DNA of 64,000 nucleotides from positions 248,001 to 312,000 of the forward strand of contig NZ_CP100405.1 in assembly GCF_024218775.1 (NCBI RefSeq), written 5' to 3'. The position numbers and the translations under genes are program-made. This DNA comes from Haloarcula marina. Its GTDB lineage: Archaea; Halobacteriota; Halobacteria; Halobacteriales; Haloarculaceae. Positions 44,847 through 61,773 of this stretch are shown here, piece by piece (the stretch's first letter is position 1; each line of letters starts with the position of its first letter). Under the pieces are notes generated by a model that saw only the letters and a program-made list of their open reading frames with translations, did no database searches and had not been told where the DNA came from.

Positions 44847-45650
44847 TCACGGCTTGGGGTCACGAGCGGTCAACAACCCCTGGGCCATGAGCCGCCGGGC
44901 GATGACGACGAGACCGTTCCCGAATCCTTCGCCGAACACTGCTTGTTCCTTCTTGCTGTCGGGCATAATCGAACTCACGAGGATCGTCGAGCGGTCGGCC
45001 AGAAGGAGCCGGCCGATCGCCGTCTCGTCTTCGGTTGCGCTCTCGCCGTGTAGCCACTCCAGGCCAGAGATGAACGTCTTGGCGTCCGGCACGGCCGTCT
45101 GGATCTGGTCTTGAAGCGACTCCGTCAACGCGCCGACGAGAAGGTCGACCCCGTCACCGATGTCGTTGAGACGGGCAACGAGATCCTCGGTCAGCAGTGA
45201 CTCGTCGCCCAGTACCAGCACGACCTCTTCGGACGCTTTCTCGATGAGCTGGTCCGTCCGGTTTTCGTTCGCGTCGCGCCCGGACATCGCCCACACCTGC
45301 TGGACGGGTGTCTCCTCGTCTTCGTCAACGATTTCGACCGTGTCCAGCGCATCGTGGAGACGCTCGACGCGGGCTTCGTACTGGTCGCGCAGGGTCTCGG
45401 TCGCCTCGTCGAGCGAAACCGCCCGGAACTGCTGCGGACTCGAATGATGTATCTCGACCAGGCCTTGCGCCTCTAGCACTCGAATCGCATCGTACACCCG
45501 CGTTCGGGGAACCTCCGTCATCTCACTCAATTGCTTTGCTGTTCCCGTGTGGAGACGGGACAGGCCGACGAAGCATCGGGCCTCGTATTCTTTCAAGCCG
45601 AGTTGCTGGAGGACTTCAATCGCGTCCTCCAGACTATCATTGGTAGTCAT
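44847..45650 (-). CDS. TrmB-family regulator
   Basis: 267 residues. HTH: LKEYEARCFVGLSRLHTGTA, EMTEVPRTRVYDAIRVLEAQ (residues 18-65), then a coiled linker and a C-terminal TrmB effector-like domain (LVLGDESLLTEDLVARLNDI, RSTILVSSIMPD). TrmB proteins often sense sugars, but haloarchaeal members are diverse. The gene is divergent from a clear paralogue at 46038. The start at 45650 (MTTNDSLED) gives the family's usual N-terminus. Confidence 0.88.
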   Translation of the reverse strand: MTTNDSLEDAIEVLQQLGLKEYEARCFVGLSRLHTGTAKQLSEMTEVPRTRVYDAIRVLEAQGLVEIHHSSPQQFRAVSLDEATETLRDQYEARVERLHDALDTVEIVDEDEETPVQQVWAMSGRDANENRTDQLIEKASEEVVLVLGDESLLTEDLVARLNDIGDGVDLLVGALTESLQDQIQTAVPDAKTFISGLEWLHGESATEDETAIGRLLLADRSTILVSSIMPDSKKEQAVFGEGFGNGLVVIARRLMAQGLLTARDPKP

Positions 45651-46037
45651 GTGTCCCAACCTCACGAAGAGTTCTCCAGTGAGTCTCTGAATGTTCGCTC
45701 CCGGCACGGATAGGGGTTGTCACTCATTTCATGACTGCGGACTCGGACGGTGCGCGCGATGGGTGGTAATGTCGTTCAAAACCGCTTCCAGTACGAATTT
45801 CCTAAATCCATTGTGAGTCTCTCAGTGACTACGGAACGATACGGATTTCACTTTGCAGAGGCGCCCACTAACGGAGTTATTGAGATTCACTCGTTTAATC
45901 ACAAAAAAGACCTATAGCACGAGACCGACCACTCTACTAGAACGAGGTCCAGTTCTGTCTCCAACTACCACACTACTGCGTGCCAACCCGGTCACTCTCC
46001 GTGGCTGGGCTCACAGCGACCCACATTCGCCAGACCG
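45651..46037. other. 387-bp divergent intergenic region between the two TrmB-like genes
   Basis: AT-rich in its right half (cacaaaaaagacctatagc) with a copy of the shared upstream motif at 45887-45901. It presumably holds both promoters. No coding frame is convincing. Confidence 0.5.
45887..45901 (+). promoter_or_regulatory. Shared upstream motif, copy D (loose)
   Basis: tcactcgtttaatca matches the consensus TCACCCGRTTAATCA at 13 of 15 positions. It lies 136 bp before the TrmB-like ATG at 46038, farther than in the core copies. Confidence 0.4.
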
Positions 46038-46835
46038 ATGAGCAACAATCCAAACGAGGACCCAGAGTCCGTCGCAATCGAGCAGCTCGAACGATTCGGG
46101 TTGAGTGCCTACGCTGCGCGGACCTTTGTCGCGCTCGCTAGTCTCGGCACGGGGACAGCCAGAGACGTCAGCCAGGTCTCAGAGGTGCCGCGCACTCGGG
46201 TGTACGACGCGATCGACGAGCTACACGACCGGGGGCTCGTCGATATCCTCCAATCGTCGCCCAAGCAGTTCTGGGCGATCTCCGCCGAAACCGCGAGTCG
46301 GACGTTCGAACACGAGCTACAGCACCGCACGGAACTCCTTCAGACGGCGCTGAGGAAACTCGAACCCATCGAACAACGAGCCGAGCAGCGCGGCGTCTGG
46401 ACGGTAGACGGGCAGACGACAGTCACGGAACGAGTCTTGGAGTTCTTCGCGAGTGCGGAAGAGGAAATCGTCTACATGACCGTCGAGGACCTCCTCACCG
46501 AGGACCTGATCGCGGGGTTGAGCGAGGCCGCAGAGCGGGGCGTTTCCATCCAGCTCGCCGGGGTGTCGACGGACGTACAGGAGCGAATTCAGGACGAGAT
46601 TCCCGGCGCGACGATGTTCGAGTCGCTGTGGGTCTGGTCGGACACATCGGCCGGACGGCTCATGATGATCGACGGTCGGAAGACACTCGTGAGTGCGCTC
46701 GTCAACGGTGCGGACGCGAGTCCGTCCGATCCGCGTTCGGAGACCGATATCTGGGGCGAGGGCGACGAGAACAGTCTGGTCGTGGTCCTGAAAGCGATTT
46801 TCACCTGGCGACTCGAGACGGAGGAACGATCTTGA
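46038..46835 (+). CDS. TrmB-family regulator, paralogue of the 44847 gene
   Basis: 265 residues. HTH GLSAYAARTFVALASLGTGTA and SEVPRTRVYDAIDELHDRGL; C-terminal domain VYMTVEDLLTEDLIAGLSEA and GRLMMIDGRKTLVSALV parallels the divergent gene segment by segment. The two probably arose by duplication and may cross-regulate through the intergenic region. Ligand unknown. Confidence 0.88.
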   Translation: MSNNPNEDPESVAIEQLERFGLSAYAARTFVALASLGTGTARDVSQVSEVPRTRVYDAIDELHDRGLVDILQSSPKQFWAISAETASRTFEHELQHRTELLQTALRKLEPIEQRAEQRGVWTVDGQTTVTERVLEFFASAEEEIVYMTVEDLLTEDLIAGLSEAAERGVSIQLAGVSTDVQERIQDEIPGATMFESLWVWSDTSAGRLMMIDGRKTLVSALVNGADASPSDPRSETDIWGEGDENSLVVVLKAIFTWRLETEERS

Positions 46836-46860: not shown

Positions 46861-47196
46861 TCAGGGATTCGGCAGCGACACTTCTTCAGGGAGCGAGTCG
46901 AGCACCGTTTCGACCTGTTCGTCGGGACGGTACCGGACGGAACCGCTTCTGTGTTCGTATTCGACGACATCGTGGTCTGCTAACTTTGGCAGGTGGACGT
47001 GGTGTAGTTGGATGGCGAGTGATTCTCGGTCCTGCGGTGGCCCGTCTTTGAAGTCAGAACCACTACGGTGGAACTGTTCGACGAGTTCGTCAACCGTCGT
47101 GGTCCCGGTAGCCTCGTGGCGCAAGTGGTGGATGATCCGGCGTCGGTGAGGATCGGCGACGAGCTGGAGACATGCGTCGAGACTGTGGGTCGTCAT
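46861..47196 (-). CDS. Small winged-helix protein (DUF7344-like)
   Basis: 111 residues. ADPHRRRIIHHLRHEATG and LHHVHLPKLADHDVVEYEHR are the hallmarks of this haloarchaeal ArsR-like group. Probably a DNA-binding regulator without ligand domain. It converges on the TrmB paralogue (25 bp between stops). A variant of the shared upstream motif lies 60 bp before the ATG. Confidence 0.8.
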   Translation of the reverse strand: MTTHSLDACLQLVADPHRRRIIHHLRHEATGTTTVDELVEQFHRSGSDFKDGPPQDRESLAIQLHHVHLPKLADHDVVEYEHRSGSVRYRPDEQVETVLDSLPEEVSLPNP

Positions 47197-47256: not shown

Positions 47257-47271
47257 TGATTATGTGGGTGA
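47257..47271 (-). promoter_or_regulatory. Shared upstream motif, copy G (variant)
   Basis: On the minus strand this reads tcacccacataatca: the TCACCC and TAATCA blocks are intact, the centre differs. It ends 60 bp before the ATG at 47196, close to the 63-66 bp of the core copies. Confidence 0.4.
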
Positions 47272-47332
47272 CGTCCGAAGCCTGCAAATCCCTGCGTCAC
47301 TGGTCAATCGGTTGCTGTACTCTCTCACTACG

Positions 47333-47347
47333 TCACCCGGTTAATCA
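47333..47347 (+). promoter_or_regulatory. Shared upstream motif, copy C
   Basis: tcacccggttaatca is a perfect match to the consensus. It lies 87 bp before the histone-like ATG at 47435. Confidence 0.55.
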
Positions 47348-47434
47348 GAACTCATCTGATTGGTAAAATGTCCTCACTTGACACAATCGAAGCGCGTTAG
47401 TCCCGGTGTCCGCTCACCGGCGGAGTGATCACAC

Positions 47435-47725
47435 ATGGTACGAAATCCGTTCCGATCACGTCGAGAAACGCGGCGCCGAGCACGAGAAGCGGCCGATTCC
47501 GAGAAGGCGAAAACCGTCCTTTCGGAAGCCGCTGATGAAGATGTCGAACCAGATGCTGCGGCTGCAGCGGCGCTACGAGGGGCAGCAGCCGAGGAAACAG
47601 CCGAAATCGCCGAATCGACGGCTCGTCGTGCCCGCCGTCGTGGTCGAAAAACCATCACGTCCGAGGACGTTGCGCAGGCGAACGAACGACATCAGGGCCG
47701 GGAAGAACGTGGACGGCACCGATAA
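47435..47725 (+). CDS. Single-histone-fold protein with basic N- and C-terminal tails
   Basis: 96 residues. Residues 28-81 match an archaeal histone fold: L1 loop region DEDVEPDA, a long central helix (ALRGAAAEETAEIAEST) and ARRARRRGRKTITSEDVAQA, where GRKTI-x-x-ED is the classic L2/alpha3 signature. The first 25 residues (RNPFRSRRETRRRAREAAD) and last 12 are Arg-rich. Haloarchaeal canonical histones are acidic two-fold fusions, so a single fold with basic tails is unusual. It may bind DNA locally or act as a regulator. The upstream motif copy C precedes it. Confidence 0.75.
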   Translation: MVRNPFRSRRETRRRAREAADSEKAKTVLSEAADEDVEPDAAAAAALRGAAAEETAEIAESTARRARRRGRKTITSEDVAQANERHQGREERGRHR

Positions 47726-47774: not shown

Positions 47775-47921
47775 ATGCCAGAATGCAACAAGTGCGGTGC
47801 GTTCGTAACGTCACGATTTGCCCGCGTCTTCGGGGACAACGAGGACGACAGCTACGGTTGCCGCAGCTGTCTGCCAGTCACAGCACTGGTCGACGGAGAT
47901 GCGTCACGGGATACTTCGTGA
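47775..47921 (+). CDS. 48-residue zinc-ribbon protein (DUF7563-like)
   Basis: Starts MPECNKCGAFVTSRFARVFG and continues with GCRSCLPV; CxxC pairs at both ends form a zinc ribbon. The ARVFGDNED segment is typical of this small haloarchaeal family. It lies 49 bp after the histone-like gene on the same strand and may be co-transcribed. Function unknown. Confidence 0.75.
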   Translation: MPECNKCGAFVTSRFARVFGDNEDDSYGCRSCLPVTALVDGDASRDTS

Positions 47922-47985: not shown

Positions 47986-48129
47986 ATGACAACGATACCC
48001 AACTCCGGTTCAGAGGCAACACTTTACGTATGCCGTGATTGTGGAGACGGCATCGAAGATCCCACCGACACGAACACCTGTCCTCACTGCGGCGGAACGC
48101 TCGTAAATAGTACTGTCCCGCACGATTAG
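47986..48129 (+). CDS. 47-residue rubrerythrin-like zinc-ribbon protein
   Basis: MTTIPNSGSEATLYVCRDCG then DTNTCPHCGGTLVNSTVPHD: two CxxC pairs in the rubrerythrin-like rubredoxin arrangement (DUF7129-like). An upstream in-frame ATG at 47950 would add 12 residues; the inner ATG gives the usual family length. It may bind zinc or iron. Part of the same short gene series as the histone-like gene. Confidence 0.75.
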   Translation: MTTIPNSGSEATLYVCRDCGDGIEDPTDTNTCPHCGGTLVNSTVPHD

Positions 48130-51859: not shown

Positions 51860-52078
51860 CTACAGGATGAACGTGACAATGGCAAGAACGACGAAGATGA
51901 TGACCAGCCATTTGGCGATATCCATACTGAGTCCAGCGACACCCCGAGCACCGAGCACCGCTGCGACGATCGCGAGAATCAAAAAGAGGACTGCAAGCTC
52001 GAGAAAATTACCCCCTAACTGTAACGGTACCGCCTGGATCGAGACCGCGCTATCCAGAACTCCGTATGATGCTATCAT
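51860..52078 (-). CDS. DUF1328 small membrane protein
   Basis: 72 residues with two membrane helices ([18 protein letters not shown] and [20 protein letters not shown]) separated by [11 protein letters not shown], which is the DUF1328/YtjA pattern. Function unknown; found in envelope-stress contexts in bacteria. Start chosen at 52078 (MIASYGVLD); longer in-frame starts add charged residues. Divergent from the amphi-Trp gene. Confidence 0.82.
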
Positions 52079-52173
52079 AGCATATCTACGCCTCTCGAGT
52101 ATGTTAACCCCCGACATATTCATTCCCATCCTGTTTTTGAATAACCGAGTGACTCTGTCCGGGTAGACTCAAT

Positions 52174-52188
52174 TCACCCGATTAATCA
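52174..52188 (+). promoter_or_regulatory. Shared upstream motif, copy A
   Basis: tcacccgattaatca. A TATA-like tactat follows 29 bp downstream at 52218-52223, and the GTG at 52252 another 28 bp on. Flanking sequence (ttcggaaaatcaggg, cagccgtatt) is also shared with copy B. Confidence 0.65.
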
Positions 52189-52251
52189 GAATACATTCTC
52201 GTTCGGAAAATCAGGGCTACTATTCTGTCGTCAGCCGTATTGGGCTGTACT

Positions 52252-52746
52252 GTGTCCCGAGACGACTACGAAGAGGAACTGTCTGCCGGTCGGGAGGAGA
52301 TCGCATCCATACTAAGCGGTGTGGCGGAGGGAATTCGCACAGGAGCCGTTCGGTTAGGCGATAGCCCGGATGCTGTGACTGTCGATACGCCAGACGAACT
52401 CACGCTGGAAATCGAACTCGAAACCGAAGACGACGCGATGAGTCTGGAACTGGAACTGGAGTGGACCGTATCGAGTGCAGCGTCTCCTGTTTCGTCCCTC
52501 GACGTTACTCCCGAGGGTGAGGACGAGGAGGTCGGGCTTATGGGAGCCACTGATGGAGCACAATCACTGGCTCGATTTGAAGTCTACCGGGCTCGAGATG
52601 AGGAATGGCGCTGGCGACTCCGTCATCGAAACGGGAACATCATTGCGAGCAGTGGCGAGGGGTACACCCGAAAACACAATGCCCTGAAGGGCCTTCGGAG
52701 TGTGATAGCGAATTCGGCAGACGCAGCAATAAGTGAAGAGACATGA
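52252..52746 (+). CDS. Amphi-Trp domain plus DUF1508 (HVO_2922-like) protein
   Basis: 164 residues. Residues 1-75 form the amphi-Trp domain (YEEELSAGREEIASILSGVA, then LEIELETEDDAMSLELELEW). Residues about 105-160 form a YegP/DUF1508 module (FEVYRARDEEWRWRLRHRNG and KHNALKGLRSVIANSAD). Neither domain has a proven biochemical role. Start GTG 52252 is placed by comparison with the DacZ-like gene, whose promoter has the same layout; a TTG lies four codons upstream. ATGA overlap with the next gene. Confidence 0.82.
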   Translation: MSRDDYEEELSAGREEIASILSGVAEGIRTGAVRLGDSPDAVTVDTPDELTLEIELETEDDAMSLELELEWTVSSAASPVSSLDVTPEGEDEEVGLMGATDGAQSLARFEVYRARDEEWRWRLRHRNGNIIASSGEGYTRKHNALKGLRSVIANSADAAISEET

Positions 52747-53225: not shown

Positions 53226-53361
53226 TCCTAGATCGATCACGATCTCGTCACTACCTTCGACTAGAGGTGTCGTACGAACGTTGATTGCCCCGGCCCTACA
53301 CAGAGAACCATGGCCGAATTTCCAGACGAACGACACCTCGTCCTATTCGAGTGGTAGTTTT

Positions 53362-53376
53362 TCACCCGGTTAATTA
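53362..53376 (+). promoter_or_regulatory. Shared upstream motif, copy B
   Basis: tcacccggttaatta. TATA-like tactat at 53406-53411 lies 29 bp further and the ATG at 53442 another 30 bp on: the same layout as copy A. Confidence 0.65.
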
Positions 53377-53441: not shown

Positions 53442-53999
53442 ATGATCGAGCCCATCTATAGTTCTGCGACGTCGGAACCGAAATCTGATGATGTAGACAT
53501 CGACGCAATACTCGAGCGGATCGAGGCGTGCGTTAAGGACATCAGTCTCGGATTCAAGCGATGGGACGATCCCTACGCTCGTGGACCCGGGCTCTATTTC
53601 GTCGTCGAAGGTGATTCCATGGCCGAATTCGCGGCTCCGATGGGGTCGAACCGCTGGCCGGTCGAGGACTGTGGGACTGTCTTTGCTGAGACCGACACAT
53701 TTCTTGAGGCGACACAAAGAGTCGCACTTTCCCATGATGGTGCAATCGTCGTTCACAGCGACGGCACGATCGAGGAGGGAATGGTCCGGATCGATCAGCG
53801 TTCTCCAACCGAATGCCGACGAACAGACGATCTTCCCTACGCCGAGTGGATGGGGACCCGCCACATGAGTGCGCTGGAAACCTCGACCCGCGAAGAAGTG
53901 GTCGCGGCGATCACACTCAGCGAAGAAGACGGACGTGTAACCGTTTTTACTGACGGCACATTCGATGATTCCCTAGCGACGTCCCTGGTGATTGATTGA
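53442..53999 (+). CDS. Diadenylate cyclase (DisA_N/DacZ-like), c-di-AMP synthesis
   Basis: 185 residues. The DAC-domain signatures are both present: SHDGAIVVHSDGTIEEG (DGA motif, about residue 100) and MGTRHMSALETS (RHxxA motif, about 140), followed by VVAAITLSEEDGRVTVF. DAC enzymes condense two ATP to cyclic di-AMP, which in archaea and bacteria controls osmotic balance and K+/Na+ transport. A 30-residue helical segment precedes the domain. It is followed after 22 bp by a CPA2 antiporter gene, probably in one operon. Preceded by motif copy B. Confidence 0.85.
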   Translation: MIEPIYSSATSEPKSDDVDIDAILERIEACVKDISLGFKRWDDPYARGPGLYFVVEGDSMAEFAAPMGSNRWPVEDCGTVFAETDTFLEATQRVALSHDGAIVVHSDGTIEEGMVRIDQRSPTECRRTDDLPYAEWMGTRHMSALETSTREEVVAAITLSEEDGRVTVFTDGTFDDSLATSLVID

Positions 54000-54004
54000 C
54001 CAAC

Positions 54005-54010
54005 GGGGGG
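54005..54010 (+). promoter_or_regulatory. G-rich ribosome-binding site of the antiporter gene
   Basis: gggggg 11 bp before the ATG at 54022 supports this start over the in-frame TTG at 53992 inside the cyclase gene. Confidence 0.45.
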
Positions 54011-54021
54011 TAAAGACACGC

Positions 54022-55272
54022 ATGGTTGTTGAGTCGGATTTGCTACTTCCGTTTCTTGCCGGGCTAACACTCGTTTTGTCCGTTGCACATACGCTTGGAA
54101 TCGTCGCTGATCGACTCGGGTTTGCACCGGTCGTTGGTGAACTCCTCACCGGGTTGGTGCTTGGCCCCTCGGTTCTCGGGTTCGTTGCTCCTGCGGTCAC
54201 GGCTATCGTCGTCCCTGTGCCCGATCGACTGGCAGCCATCTCGTCGCTCGGGCTCATTCTCCTCCTCGTACTGGCTGGAACGGAAGTTGACGTTCAGACG
54301 GTGCGCCGCAATGCCCGACCGACGATAGCGCTCGCTACCGGAGCCTCCGTCGTGCCGTTCCTTCTGGGGTTCGCGCTGGGATGGGCGCTCCCCCCGAGGT
54401 TTCTCGTCACTCCCGGCCAGCGACTGCCGTTCGCACTGTTCTTGGCGACGGCGCTGAGCATCTCGGCGGTCCCCGTCGCCGTCCGTGTGCTGATCGACCT
54501 CGACGCGATGGACCGAACAGTGGGCCAACTCACCCTCACCGTCGCTGTCGTTATCGATGCAGCGGGGTGGATTGCGCTCACGATAGTTTCTGACATCGCT
54601 CGTGAGGGACAAATAGAGCCGTTTGCGGTCGGTCGAACGCTCGTCGTCCTCGGTGTATTCGTCGGAGGTGCCGTTGTTCTCGGGCCGCGAATCGTCGATA
54701 CACTCTTCGATGTCACCGAATACGTTCGATCGCCGGTGTTGACCGGATTTTCGATCGTCATCGTCGTCGGGTTTGCGATGGCCGGGGGGTCGCTCGCACT
54801 TGGATTGGAAGCCGTTCTCGGCGCGTTCCTCGCAGGCGTTCTCGTGAGAAATCGACTCAACGCGGAGACCAACCGAGTATTTCAGATGGTGGCGCTCGGA
54901 CTGTTCGCACCCATCTTCTTTGCGACGGCAGGGTTACGGGTTGACTTGAGCGGACTGTTCACGCTGGATACGCTTCTGGTCGCAGGCGTCACACTCGCCG
55001 TTGCAGTGCTGGGAAAGGCACTTGGCGTGATACTCGGAGCGAGATTAACCGACCTCTCCCGAGCAGAAACCGTCTGCCTTGCCATCGGGCTCAACGCTCG
55101 CGGCGCAATGGAACTCGTCGTGGCGGCCCTGGGCTTGGCAATTGGAATCCTCACGCCCACCATCTATGCCGTCATCGTGCTCGTCGCCATCGTCACGTCC
55201 GTCATGACGCCGCCACTGCTCCGGCGTGCGCTCGTGCACCTTCCATACGACGAACCCGCAGGGGCGGCGTGA
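54022..55272 (+). CDS. CPA2-family cation/proton antiporter
   Basis: 416 residues, about 12-13 membrane helices. Family segments: GFAPVVGELLTGLVLGPSVL near residue 40, LALEAVLGAFLAGVLVR-like GLEAVLGAFLAGVLV near 270, and ARGAMELVVAALGLAIG near 355. CPA2 proteins exchange Na+ or K+ for H+. There is no RCK/TrkA_C domain, so gating by the c-di-AMP made by the upstream gene product would need another subunit or direct binding. Operon partner of the diadenylate cyclase. Confidence 0.9.
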   Translation: MVVESDLLLPFLAGLTLVLSVAHTLGIVADRLGFAPVVGELLTGLVLGPSVLGFVAPAVTAIVVPVPDRLAAISSLGLILLLVLAGTEVDVQTVRRNARPTIALATGASVVPFLLGFALGWALPPRFLVTPGQRLPFALFLATALSISAVPVAVRVLIDLDAMDRTVGQLTLTVAVVIDAAGWIALTIVSDIAREGQIEPFAVGRTLVVLGVFVGGAVVLGPRIVDTLFDVTEYVRSPVLTGFSIVIVVGFAMAGGSLALGLEAVLGAFLAGVLVRNRLNAETNRVFQMVALGLFAPIFFATAGLRVDLSGLFTLDTLLVAGVTLAVAVLGKALGVILGARLTDLSRAETVCLAIGLNARGAMELVVAALGLAIGILTPTIYAVIVLVAIVTSVMTPPLLRRALVHLPYDEPAGAA

Positions 55273-57666: not shown

Positions 57667-58473
57667 TCAAGTGTCGTTCTGTTCGTAGGCATCGAACCAG
57701 CCAGTGACGGTCTGCTCGAGCGCCCCGGTCGTACTCCCGAGGTTCAGCATCTGGTAGCCGTTCGTCGCTTTTTCGTTGACATCATCCATCCCGAATCCGA
57801 GTCCTGCGATGGGGACACCCGCATCGACGGCCTTCGATCGAACCGTCTCGACGGCTTCCTGCACCATCGGATGATCTATCTCACCGGGGTGACCGAGCGA
57901 CACCGAGAGGTCGAACGGGCCGATGAAGACGAATCCCAGGTCCGGGACGGCTAGGATGTCGTCCAGGTTCTCGATGGACGCCTCGGTCTCGATGGTCACA
58001 CCGACGAGGGTTTCTCTGTCTTCGGTCGCAATGTAATCGTCAGCGAGGCCCCAGCGAGACGCCCGTGGCGAGGCCAGTCCTCGATCACCGGGACCATCGT
58101 CGTAACGGAACCGTGCGGATCGAACCGCATCGCGGACTTCGTCGGCGGTTTCCACGCGGGGGAGGAACACGTTTCTCACACCGAGGTCCAGCGCTTTCCG
58201 GACGAGCGTTAGATCCGTATCGGGAAGTCGGAGAAGTACTTCCACCTCCGTCCGTTCGGCTGCGCGGAGGAGGTCTTCCAACTGACGTGCATCCGACGGG
58301 TTCGGTCCACCGTGTTCGAGATCCACCCAGACGAAATCGACGCCGAGCTCACCGTAGAACTCCACGAGCGTCGGGCTGTACGTATTGTCGAGGACGCCGA
58401 GAGCGATACCGCCGTCCTTCAGGGTTGCGGCGAGGTCGTTGGCTGGCTGTGAAGCTCTCTTTTCGTTACTCAT
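57667..58473 (-). CDS. HpcH/HpaI-family aldolase
   Basis: 268 residues of the phosphoenolpyruvate/pyruvate TIM-barrel group. Landmarks: VDFVWVDLEHGGPNPSD (catalytic His), GVTIETEASIENLDDI (metal Glu), FIGPFDLSVSLGHPG (metal Asp). Members cleave 2-keto-4-hydroxy acids to pyruvate and an aldehyde, as in the last step of homoprotocatechuate or related aromatic pathways. It could accept products from the catabolic block, but it sits with ion-transport genes. TATA gtttttatac at 58499-58508 gives a leaderless start. Confidence 0.9.
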   Translation of the reverse strand: MSNEKRASQPANDLAATLKDGGIALGVLDNTYSPTLVEFYGELGVDFVWVDLEHGGPNPSDARQLEDLLRAAERTEVEVLLRLPDTDLTLVRKALDLGVRNVFLPRVETADEVRDAVRSARFRYDDGPGDRGLASPRASRWGLADDYIATEDRETLVGVTIETEASIENLDDILAVPDLGFVFIGPFDLSVSLGHPGEIDHPMVQEAVETVRSKAVDAGVPIAGLGFGMDDVNEKATNGYQMLNLGSTTGALEQTVTGWFDAYEQNDT

Positions 58474-58905
58474 CGCAAGCGGAGCATTCGGGGCACTCGT
58501 ATAAAAACTCCAACAGTTTTCATCGCATACGCGATTGTGATTAATCGAGAGAAAGGTGGTAGTCGGACGACCGCTGAGTGGGTACGCCTCACGTCCACCG
58601 AGGGTCCGTCGTGGAATCGCGATCGGTACAACCCATCGTCGTCGTCGGATTTGTTGTCGGTGAATGCAGAGCCCTCAACGGATATGGAATACTGGTTTGA
58701 CAATCCGACGCTGAGTCACCTAGCGTTCGACATCGCATCACCGACCGGCTCGGCCGTCTGATTCAGTTTCTGATGAACTCGATTGATCGTCCGGTTCGTC
58801 GGTGAGGTTGAGACCAGCCATGAGACGAGCCGTGATGAACACGTGCAGAGGCTTCTGACGTAGTTGGTCAACAGGCACTCACTCTCTGTGGCTACGACGC
58901 ATTCT
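58474..58905. other. 432-bp gap with promoter of the aldolase operon
   Basis: Holds the TATA box and motif copy E of the minus-strand aldolase gene. A plus-strand frame at 58537-58761 (74 codons) has no recognisable domain and is not called. The rest shows nothing clear. Confidence 0.45.
58538..58552 (-). promoter_or_regulatory. Shared upstream motif, copy E
   Basis: Minus strand tctctcgattaatca: the right block CGATTAATCA is intact. It lies 32 bp before the TATA tttata and 64 bp before the ATG at 58473. Confidence 0.55.
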
Positions 58906-59211
58906 TCAGAACGAAACGTCGGCTTCGTCCGTGGGCCCCACCGCTGCTACGGAGGGGTTCGTGCCACGGTCATCGTAGAATTTGCGCCCGATATACTCGT
59001 CGCTCACGTTACCGATGATGGTCGTGTACAACTCGTCGGCCGAGGTATACCTCTCTTGACCGACGTGACCGAGTATCGTCGAAATCGTCTCGGTTTCCTG
59101 TGCGTCCGGGGCCTCGAGTTCGATGTCTCCAATCTGCTCGATGACCGAGCCGTGATCGATCGGAAAGCTGAATTCGTCTTCGAGGGATGCGATTACGGTA
59201 GGTATCTTCAT
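58906..59211 (-). CDS. DUF5789-like small haloarchaeal protein
   Basis: 101 residues, acidic. The C-terminal part ERYTSADELYTTIIGNVSDE YIGRKFYDDRG is the recognisable family feature (two pieces: SADELYTTIIGNVS and YIGRKFYDDRG). Starts MKIPTVIASLEDEF; a longer in-frame start at 59253 is less likely because TATA-like ctttatg at 59241-59247 then lies inside it. Function unknown. Preceded by motif copy F. Confidence 0.75.
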   Translation of the reverse strand: MKIPTVIASLEDEFSFPIDHGSVIEQIGDIELEAPDAQETETISTILGHVGQERYTSADELYTTIIGNVSDEYIGRKFYDDRGTNPSVAAVGPTDEADVSF

Positions 59212-59257
59212 CAGATACCCGGATACCCGTTCCCCACCAACATAAAGTGACAATAAT

Positions 59258-59404
59258 TTACAAACCGAGTCGTTTTTTGATTAACTGAGATACAGTACTT
59301 GACACACCGTTGGCGGTGACACGTTCGCCCTTGGACCGCTCAAGCACGGTGTACCCGGTGAACGAGGGGACGTTCTCCTCGGCCTTCGTTAACACTGATA
59401 CGGT
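59258..59404 (-). pseudogene. Orphan C-terminal fragment of an unknown protein
   Basis: A 48-codon frame (VPSFTGYTVLERSKGERVTA, QLIKKRLGL, stop at 59258-59260) reads like the end of a real protein, but its 5' side runs straight into the transposase fragment with no start codon. Probably a gene cut by the insertion. Family not recognised. Confidence 0.4.
59278..59292 (-). promoter_or_regulatory. Shared upstream motif, copy F
   Basis: Minus strand tatctcagttaatca; right block CAGTTAATCA differs from CGGTTAATCA at one base. It lies 30 bp before TATA-like ctttatg and 66 bp before the ATG at 59211. Confidence 0.5.
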
Positions 59405-59829
59405 TATCCGCCGAGCCACCACCCGTAGAGCCGTTCCTGCTCGTCAGTGTCGGGATGCTTCTTCGAGTCGCCGTAGGTCTTCCCCTTGAGCAGCTGGCGT
59501 TCAACTGCGTTCGCGAACCGATTGCGCCAGGTGCGTGAGAGAACCGATTCATCCGGGATGCGTTCGATACCGAACACCTCTACGAGTTCTGCGTACTGTG
59601 TCAGGCTTCGATAGCTCTGACCCGTGATTTCTCGGTAAAGGAACAGTCGAAGCATTCCATGGAACGGATATGGTGCCGGATGCCACTCGGGGTAGCCGTC
59701 CTCAAGCGTTTCGAACGGGCCCTCTAGAGCGGTGAGTGTGTTCGTGAGGACTGACCCACCGCGGAGTTGCCGGTGGAGTTTAATGCCAACACTGTACGCG
59801 TCAGTGAGACGAAGCGACCGATTTGCCAT
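59404..59829 (-). pseudogene. N-terminal part of a haloarchaeal DDE transposase
   Basis: 141 residues: MANRSLRLTDAYSVGIKLHR, then YPFHGMLRLFLYREITGQSY and RIPDESVLSRTWRNRF, the recurring N-terminal domain of IS5/IS4-like haloarchaeal transposases. The frame ends without the catalytic DDE domain, so the gene is truncated and presumably inactive. No terminal inverted repeats were found around it. Confidence 0.75.
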
Positions 59830-61206: not shown

Positions 61207-61773
61207 TTAGAGTGATCCATCTACGCTATGAATGAGACAGGAGATAGTGAGTTCACGGAACTGTTTCCACCAGCGGCGTGAGCGGACGAGCGCGCCGTAC
61301 TTCCGCTTGAGTGTTGAGTTGACGGTCTCAGATTGACTCCGTTGGGCGTGGAGATCAGCGTCTAAGCGTGCGTTCTATGCCTTGTGGAGCGATGTGAACT
61401 CACGGTGCTTGATCAGTGGGTAAATCTCGTGTTGACGGGCAAGCCGTCTGGTTTTCTGATCGTCGTAGCCTTTGTCACCGAGCAGGATGTCAATGGTCTC
61501 GGGGTTGCGCTTGATCAAGGACGGAGCAATCTGGCTATCGTGTTTTCGTGTCGTCGTCACGTGTAAATCGATGATTGCGTTCACCCTCGTATCGATCAAT
61601 AGTGTCGCTTTGAGTTGCTGAATCCTCAGTTTCGCTCGTTTCGTGTAGTGTTTCGAGGCGTGACTCCGCTCGAGGCCTGAGGCATCGATGCTAACAATAC
61701 CGTTCGTCGGCAGCTGGGTTACTGAGAGAGTGAGAAGCACGCGCCAGATAGCCATCTCTAGGCGGTCGAACAT
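61207..61773 (-). pseudogene. IS5-type transposase fragment with in-frame TAG
   Basis: Catalytic part of an IS5-family haloarchaeal transposase: GIVSIDASGLERSHASKHYT (first Asp), ILLGDKGYDDQKTRRLARQH (second Asp), HREFTSLHKA, then a TAG, then NARLDADLHAQRSQSETVN and KRKYGALVRSRRWWKQFREL (Glu region) to a TAA at 61207-61209. The TAG falls where I expect Trp (TGG), so it is a nonsense mutation. The N-terminal DNA-binding part is missing. Not functional. Confidence 0.85.

Follow-up and report, generated by a model that had tools for sequence, protein, structure and literature searches.

A divergent single-fold histone with an Arg-rich N-terminus in a gene island of Haloarcula marina

Analysis of a 64,000-nucleotide stretch of the Haloarcula marina genome (hereafter the window) showed that the ORF at 47435-47725 (+), which starts with ATG and encodes a product of 96 amino acids, is a genuine, divergent and dispensable single-fold histone, a variant rather than a new category. 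In the literature on archaeal and prokaryotic histones covered here, with supplementary lists outside that coverage, this Arg-rich variant was not found described. The protein may be a histone variant that is expressed only under certain conditions and binds DNA as a dimer without polymerising, a reading to which we give about an even chance and whose mechanism we infer.

The protein scored 20.1 bits (E 8e-4) against PF00808 (CBFD_NFYB_HMF) and 24.1 bits (E 4e-5) against the archaeal histone model NF043032, in both cases under the curated cut-offs of 21.4 and 50 bits, respectively. Against an HMM trained on HMfB and 24 singlet histones of archaea, the protein scored 14.2 bits, a value reached by none of about 5000 composition shuffles (maximum 9.0). 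Since it falls below the curated cut-offs but above the shuffles, the protein is, judged by its sequence, a divergent relative of the PF00808 and NF043032 families. Profile-profile comparison with archaeal histones yielded P values of 8e-6 and 3e-6, and a profile search of the PDB placed the archaeal histones HPhA and HMfA at the top. The family signals, the HMM score above the shuffles and the profile-profile matches bear out the single histone fold proposed in a preliminary description of this DNA, in place of the two folds of haloarchaeal doublets, and the signature GRKTITSEDV named there was found at residues 70-79. The extent given for the fold (residues 28-81) held in part, as the sequence strongly supports alpha2-L2-alpha3 (residues 41-86) but alpha1 only weakly.

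Structure prediction, a check that had been proposed together with comparison to archaeal histone structures, gave a helix-loop-long helix-loop-helix arrangement in which the position of alpha1 is not secured. AlphaFold2 on four sequences (the window protein and orthologs) placed helices at residues 5-33, 41-68 and 76-95 with a mean pLDDT of 73; with an ortholog placed first, the helices were at 5-34, 41-68 and 76-95, with a mean pLDDT of 80 and values of 89-94 over residues 51-90. The protein was accordingly divided into alpha1 with its extension (5-33), an alpha2 of 28 residues (41-68), L2 (69-75) and an alpha3 of about 20 residues (76-95), full length or longer. The pLDDT of the window model is 58-65 over residues 21-50, where alpha1 placement is of low confidence, and its position is insecure because histones fold as dimers and the models are of a monomer. 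For the ortholog model, the best Foldseek matches were HMfA, HPhA and HMfB (prob 1.00, rmsd 0.5-0.8 A over 42-45 residues of alpha2-L2-alpha3), and NF-YB/NF-YC structures also ranked high; the window model matched nucleosome histones best (E 0.2). All Foldseek E-values lay above 0.001 for both models, which is not surprising for such a small element. VIA-align gave Z values of 5-7, which alone do not decide the matter, and the fold assignment draws its weight from the sequence profile and from the superposition by Foldseek. The expectation that a single fold would have to dimerise is supported by what holds for the family. The core is alanine-rich with few large hydrophobic residues, and dimer stability is therefore uncertain.

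Comparison with HMfB was performed on an ungapped HMM alignment over residues 41-85, with a separate alignment for R10 and R19. In HMfB, the residues L46, H49, D59 and L62 belong to the dimer-dimer four-helix bundle, and R10, R19 and T54 contact DNA. HMfB R52, K53 and D59 are conserved as R71, K72 and D78, and the RxTxxxxD motif of L2/alpha3 is present as R71, T73 and D78. T54 corresponds to T73 here and to N in the orthologs L022, L023 and L024. At the bundle positions, L46, H49 and L62 are replaced by R65, R68 and Q81, leaving one of the four (D78). In the core, M35 and L32 are replaced by E54 and A51. R10 and R19 align to T27 and D36, and two extra residues are found around L1 compared with nucleosomal archaeal histones. 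On these alignments, the residues through which alpha1 and L1 would contact DNA are replaced, and so is the dimer-dimer interface. Among the five intact copies, R71-K72 of L2 are conserved in four and E77-D78 in all.

The predicted pI is 10.5, and the ends are basic, as had been described (residues 1-22 net +5, residues 83-96 net +2, the middle net -3); the orthologs lie nearer neutral (L023, pI 8.3). The Arg-rich N-terminal extension MVRNPFRSRRETRRRAREAADS (codons 1-22, 47435-47500, +) has eight arginines and lacks lysine. In the model, it runs together with alpha1 into a single helix over residues 5-33 at a pLDDT of about 60-75, and on this basis the Arg-rich N-terminus would be a helical extension of alpha1, not a flexible tail. 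A eukaryote-like tail, that is a disordered, lysine-bearing basic N-terminus, was not found: because the modelled helix runs on into alpha1 and residues 1-22 hold no lysine, the likeness to tailed eukaryotic histones drawn earlier is not supported.

The histone operon is preceded by a promoter box, GTCACCCGGTTAATCA (47332-47347, +), which is retained in orthologous promoters and matches, with variants, the consensus TTCACYCG-N-TTAATCA. A TATA-like element GTAAAAT (47363-47369, +) follows about 31 nt after the box start, and neighbouring box promoters are similarly spaced. Motif search located the box GTCACCCACATAATCA of the divergent DUF7344 gene at 47257-47272 (-), and further copies precede a TrmB-like gene (box 45886-45901, +), a DUF1328 gene at 51860-52129 (-) (box 52138-52153, -), an Amphi-Trp/DUF1508 gene at 52240-52746 (+) (box 52173-52188, +) and a DAC-domain gene at 53442-53999 (+) (box 53361-53376, +). 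In five of these first six boxes, a TATA-like element lies at a near-constant 30-33 nt. Weaker copies at 58538 (-), for an HpcH/HpaI-aldolase-like gene (57667-58473), and at 59278 (-), for a 115-aa ORF (58906-59253), bring the span of the local regulon up to about 14 kb. At least six, and probably eight, local promoters thus carry the box. Seven matches to the box core lie in the window where 0.8 were expected, with none of 100 shuffles as high, which confirms the shared upstream motif reported in the preliminary description. Allowing at most one mismatch, no box sites were found in the whole genome outside the local cluster; with two mismatches there were 42 sites versus 34 in the control, mostly background besides the local cluster. 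Because the box promoters are co-located, co-regulation of their genes is likely. Folding of a 5' UTR hairpin before the histone start was no better than in shuffles in two of three orthologs.

Among the box genes, the product of 53442-53999 matched the DAC (diadenylate cyclase/DisA) domain with 37.5 bits and carries DGA and GTRHM motifs, the RHR motif being not exact; since Pfam assigns DAC, its designation as a HalOD1 protein was ruled out. The end of this gene overlaps an Na/H exchanger gene (53992-55272, +) in an operon. A link of c-di-AMP to ion control through the DAC gene is possible, and the predicted functions of the genes sharing the box suggest ion or osmotic stress.

Full-length orthologs with 74-89% identity were found in four other haloarchaeal genomes: Haloarculaceae archaeon H-GB1-1 (G046, L023), Halobellus inordinatus YC20 (G252, L022), Haloferax prahovense DSM 18310 (G335, L024) and genome G302 (L017). 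In the order-wide sample an intact copy was present in 5 of 392 genomes, and an order-wide profile search added none to those of the single-sequence search. The weak order-wide matches L018 and L021 were frame-shifted or unrelated translations, and L005 and L007 are acidic miniature histones. Mostly acidic, single-fold-like proteins of 89-101 aa at L008 (1471-1755), L006 (1486-1752, -) and L004 (326-628, -), from further genomes of the same taxonomic family, carry an ARRRxR..TPEDV-type motif. They align with the window histone, but alone score within its shuffles; they are possible distant relatives, and possibly a second divergent histone family. No relatives of the histone were found in a translated search of plasmid and phage records or in viral contigs, leaving a viral origin without support.

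Codon comparisons showed that the histone coding gene is under purifying selection, which is strong between the closest copies. Against a neutral expectation of 74% nonsynonymous changes, L022 and L023 differ by 10 synonymous and 1 nonsynonymous changes (P 1e-5), L022 and L024 by 18 and 4 (P 6e-8), and the third pair among these copies by 9 and 3 (P 5e-4); dN/dS is 0.03-0.11 in the closest ortholog pairs. The gene was intact in five of the genomes whose module copies were examined. In G241 it is frameshifted at the C-terminus only, and in G266, G370, G322 and G038 it is stopped, truncated or internally deleted. In two copies (L042 and L044 of G290 and G389), the histone and DUF7563 genes are cleanly deleted with promoter and leader kept, and the DUF7129 zinc-ribbon gene begins exactly at the histone start codon, which supports 47435 as the true start codon. 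In at least seven further genomes the histone is absent and the TrmB pair and DUF7344 are kept. Since frameshifts, truncations or clean deletions affect about half of the copies identified, the histone is evidently dispensable.

The window lies in the second-largest contig of the assembly (364 kb, C2), the companion contig C1 being 3.36 Mb. The genome also encodes an acidic doublet histone (C1:556659-557057) as well as L012, a miniature histone that is likewise acidic. The earlier statement that haloarchaeal histones are normally acidic doublets is overstated, as acidic single-fold histones of the miniature or face-to-face kind are known in haloarchaea and this genome has one besides its doublet. 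The module consists of a TrmB-like regulator (44847-45707, -), a second TrmB-like core gene with its own box (46038-46835, +), a DUF7344 winged-helix-like gene conserved in most module copies (46861-47196, -) and, diverging from it, the histone gene followed by two zinc-ribbon microprotein genes. These were anticipated in the preliminary description and were assigned to DUF7563 (47775-47921, +; 48 aa, 62.9 bits) and DUF7129/rubrerythrin-like (47986-48129, +; 47 aa, with its ATG at 47986). Synteny of the histone module was seen in ten genomes. Module proteins are roughly 75-93% identical in other haloarchaeal genera and families, and the flanking PHO4 transporter is 97% identical in the compared module copies, versus 77% (108/141) for the chromosomal doublet histone when this genome is compared with a single member of a different family. 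On these identities, horizontal transfer of the histone island is likely. Transposase-like fragments at 59404-59829 (-) and 61375-61773 (-) adjoin the island, consistent with mobility.

The protein resembles nucleosomal archaeal histones (HMfA/HMfB, HPhA; PF00808) in its GRKTI..ED motif, its full-length alpha2 and alpha3 and the close superposition of the ortholog model, but differs from them in the fusion of alpha1 to an Arg-rich helix, the extra residues around L1, the absence of R10 and R19 and the altered dimer-dimer interface. Prokaryotic histones fall into 17 categories, and Halobacteria carry one chromosomal face-to-face histone, with more on plasmids, archaeal ones being generally tail-less (PMC11390915). 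Face-to-face histones have a truncated alpha3, a shortened alpha2 and a conserved N at HVO_0196 position 45 (PMC11390915), none of which was found here, this N being replaced by R69. The window protein shares with face-to-face and acidic miniature histones (HVO_0196-like, DUF1931-related) a single fold and an occurrence in haloarchaea, whereas theirs are acidic with truncated alpha2 and alpha3 and its alpha3 is long. Bacterial face-to-face histones, and those Asgard histones whose N-terminal tails are basic, are likewise single-fold with a positively charged N-terminal extension; the Asgard tails are described as disordered, whereas the present extension was modelled helical and has no lysine. 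Archaeal histones have also been grouped into five clusters, with combinations of single basic and acidic doublet histones mentioned for Halobacteria (PMC13260811), and the protein would resemble those basic singlets by length and pI. The doublets HpyA and HstA are nonessential and occupy few discrete binding sites (PMC10128011). Like the present histone, they come from the haloarchaeal clade of organisms, are probably regulatory and are nonessential, which for the present histone is judged from its loss, but they have two folds, are acidic and belong to the core chromosome, in contrast to one basic fold encoded by an accessory island gene.

These doublets (PMC10128011) served as the model for the evenly weighted reading given above. 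The histone would be made under control of the local regulon and would fold only as a dimer, either with itself or with the other histones of the genome. DNA would be contacted through the L2 loop (R71, K72) and the Arg-rich N-terminal helix, the latter substituting for the missing alpha1 and L1 contacts. Polymerisation into hypernucleosomes would not be expected, because the equivalents of HMfB L46, H49 and L62 are Arg and Gln. The dimer may be a dispensable accessory factor that bends, coats or bridges DNA and tunes transcription locally once the island is switched on, analogous to haloarchaeal doublet histones, which are described as regulators rather than packagers. The many broken copies indicate a function that is not important to most carriers.

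The position of the gene among three regulator genes, the box common to at least five neighbouring promoters and the NF-YB/NF-YC fold matches could instead indicate a local transcription co-regulator (NF-YB/NF-YC-like or a repressor partner) that works at box promoters with the TrmB-like or DUF7344 proteins and is not a general architecture protein. We regard this as rather unlikely: box and TrmB pair persist without the histone (L040 and others), so the regulon does not need it, and no specificity element was identified. Similarly doubtful is a basic helical microprotein of histone descent, whose Arg-rich helix would bind RNA, ribosome or a partner and whose fold would be a relic or dimerisation device. 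The loss of alpha1/L1 DNA residues, the Ala-rich core, the adjacent zinc-ribbon microproteins and the N at the T54 position in three orthologs fit such a protein, but R71-K72 and E77-D78 are kept under purifying selection and the fold is kept in the structure model. The chromatin reading of the preliminary description, a nucleosome-type DNA-wrapping histone with extra Arg-rich arms, agrees with the nucleosomal length of alpha2 and the long alpha3; with Arg/Gln at the HMfB bundle positions and T27 and D36 for R10 and R19, it is very improbable. Equally remote is the possibility that the gene is not functional here but decays as a passenger on an island that moved horizontally. A low GC3 of 0.46 and the broken or deleted half of the identified copies would suit it, but the gene is intact in five genomes with synonymous-biased changes, and even the less constrained pair of the window copy and L023 (15 to 12) is below neutral expectation (P 9e-4).

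A dimeric, conditionally expressed variant remains the preferred reading. In its boldest form, which we hold to be rather unlikely, the protein would represent a separate haloarchaeal histone class, in which an Arg-rich helix replaces the alpha1 contacts and a regulon-controlled, non-polymerising dimer reshapes promoter DNA, with two zinc-ribbon proteins as partners, under osmotic or ion stress, spreading and decaying with a mobile stress island. Published surveys rely on Pfam models or InterPro membership, and because the present histone just misses the cut-offs of both Pfam and NCBIfam, divergent haloarchaeal singlets may be undercounted. The gene puts a histone under a promoter box that can be defined, and its product offers a natural test of how much histone function survives the loss of the dimer-dimer interface and of the alpha1 contacts and the gain of an Arg-rich helix.
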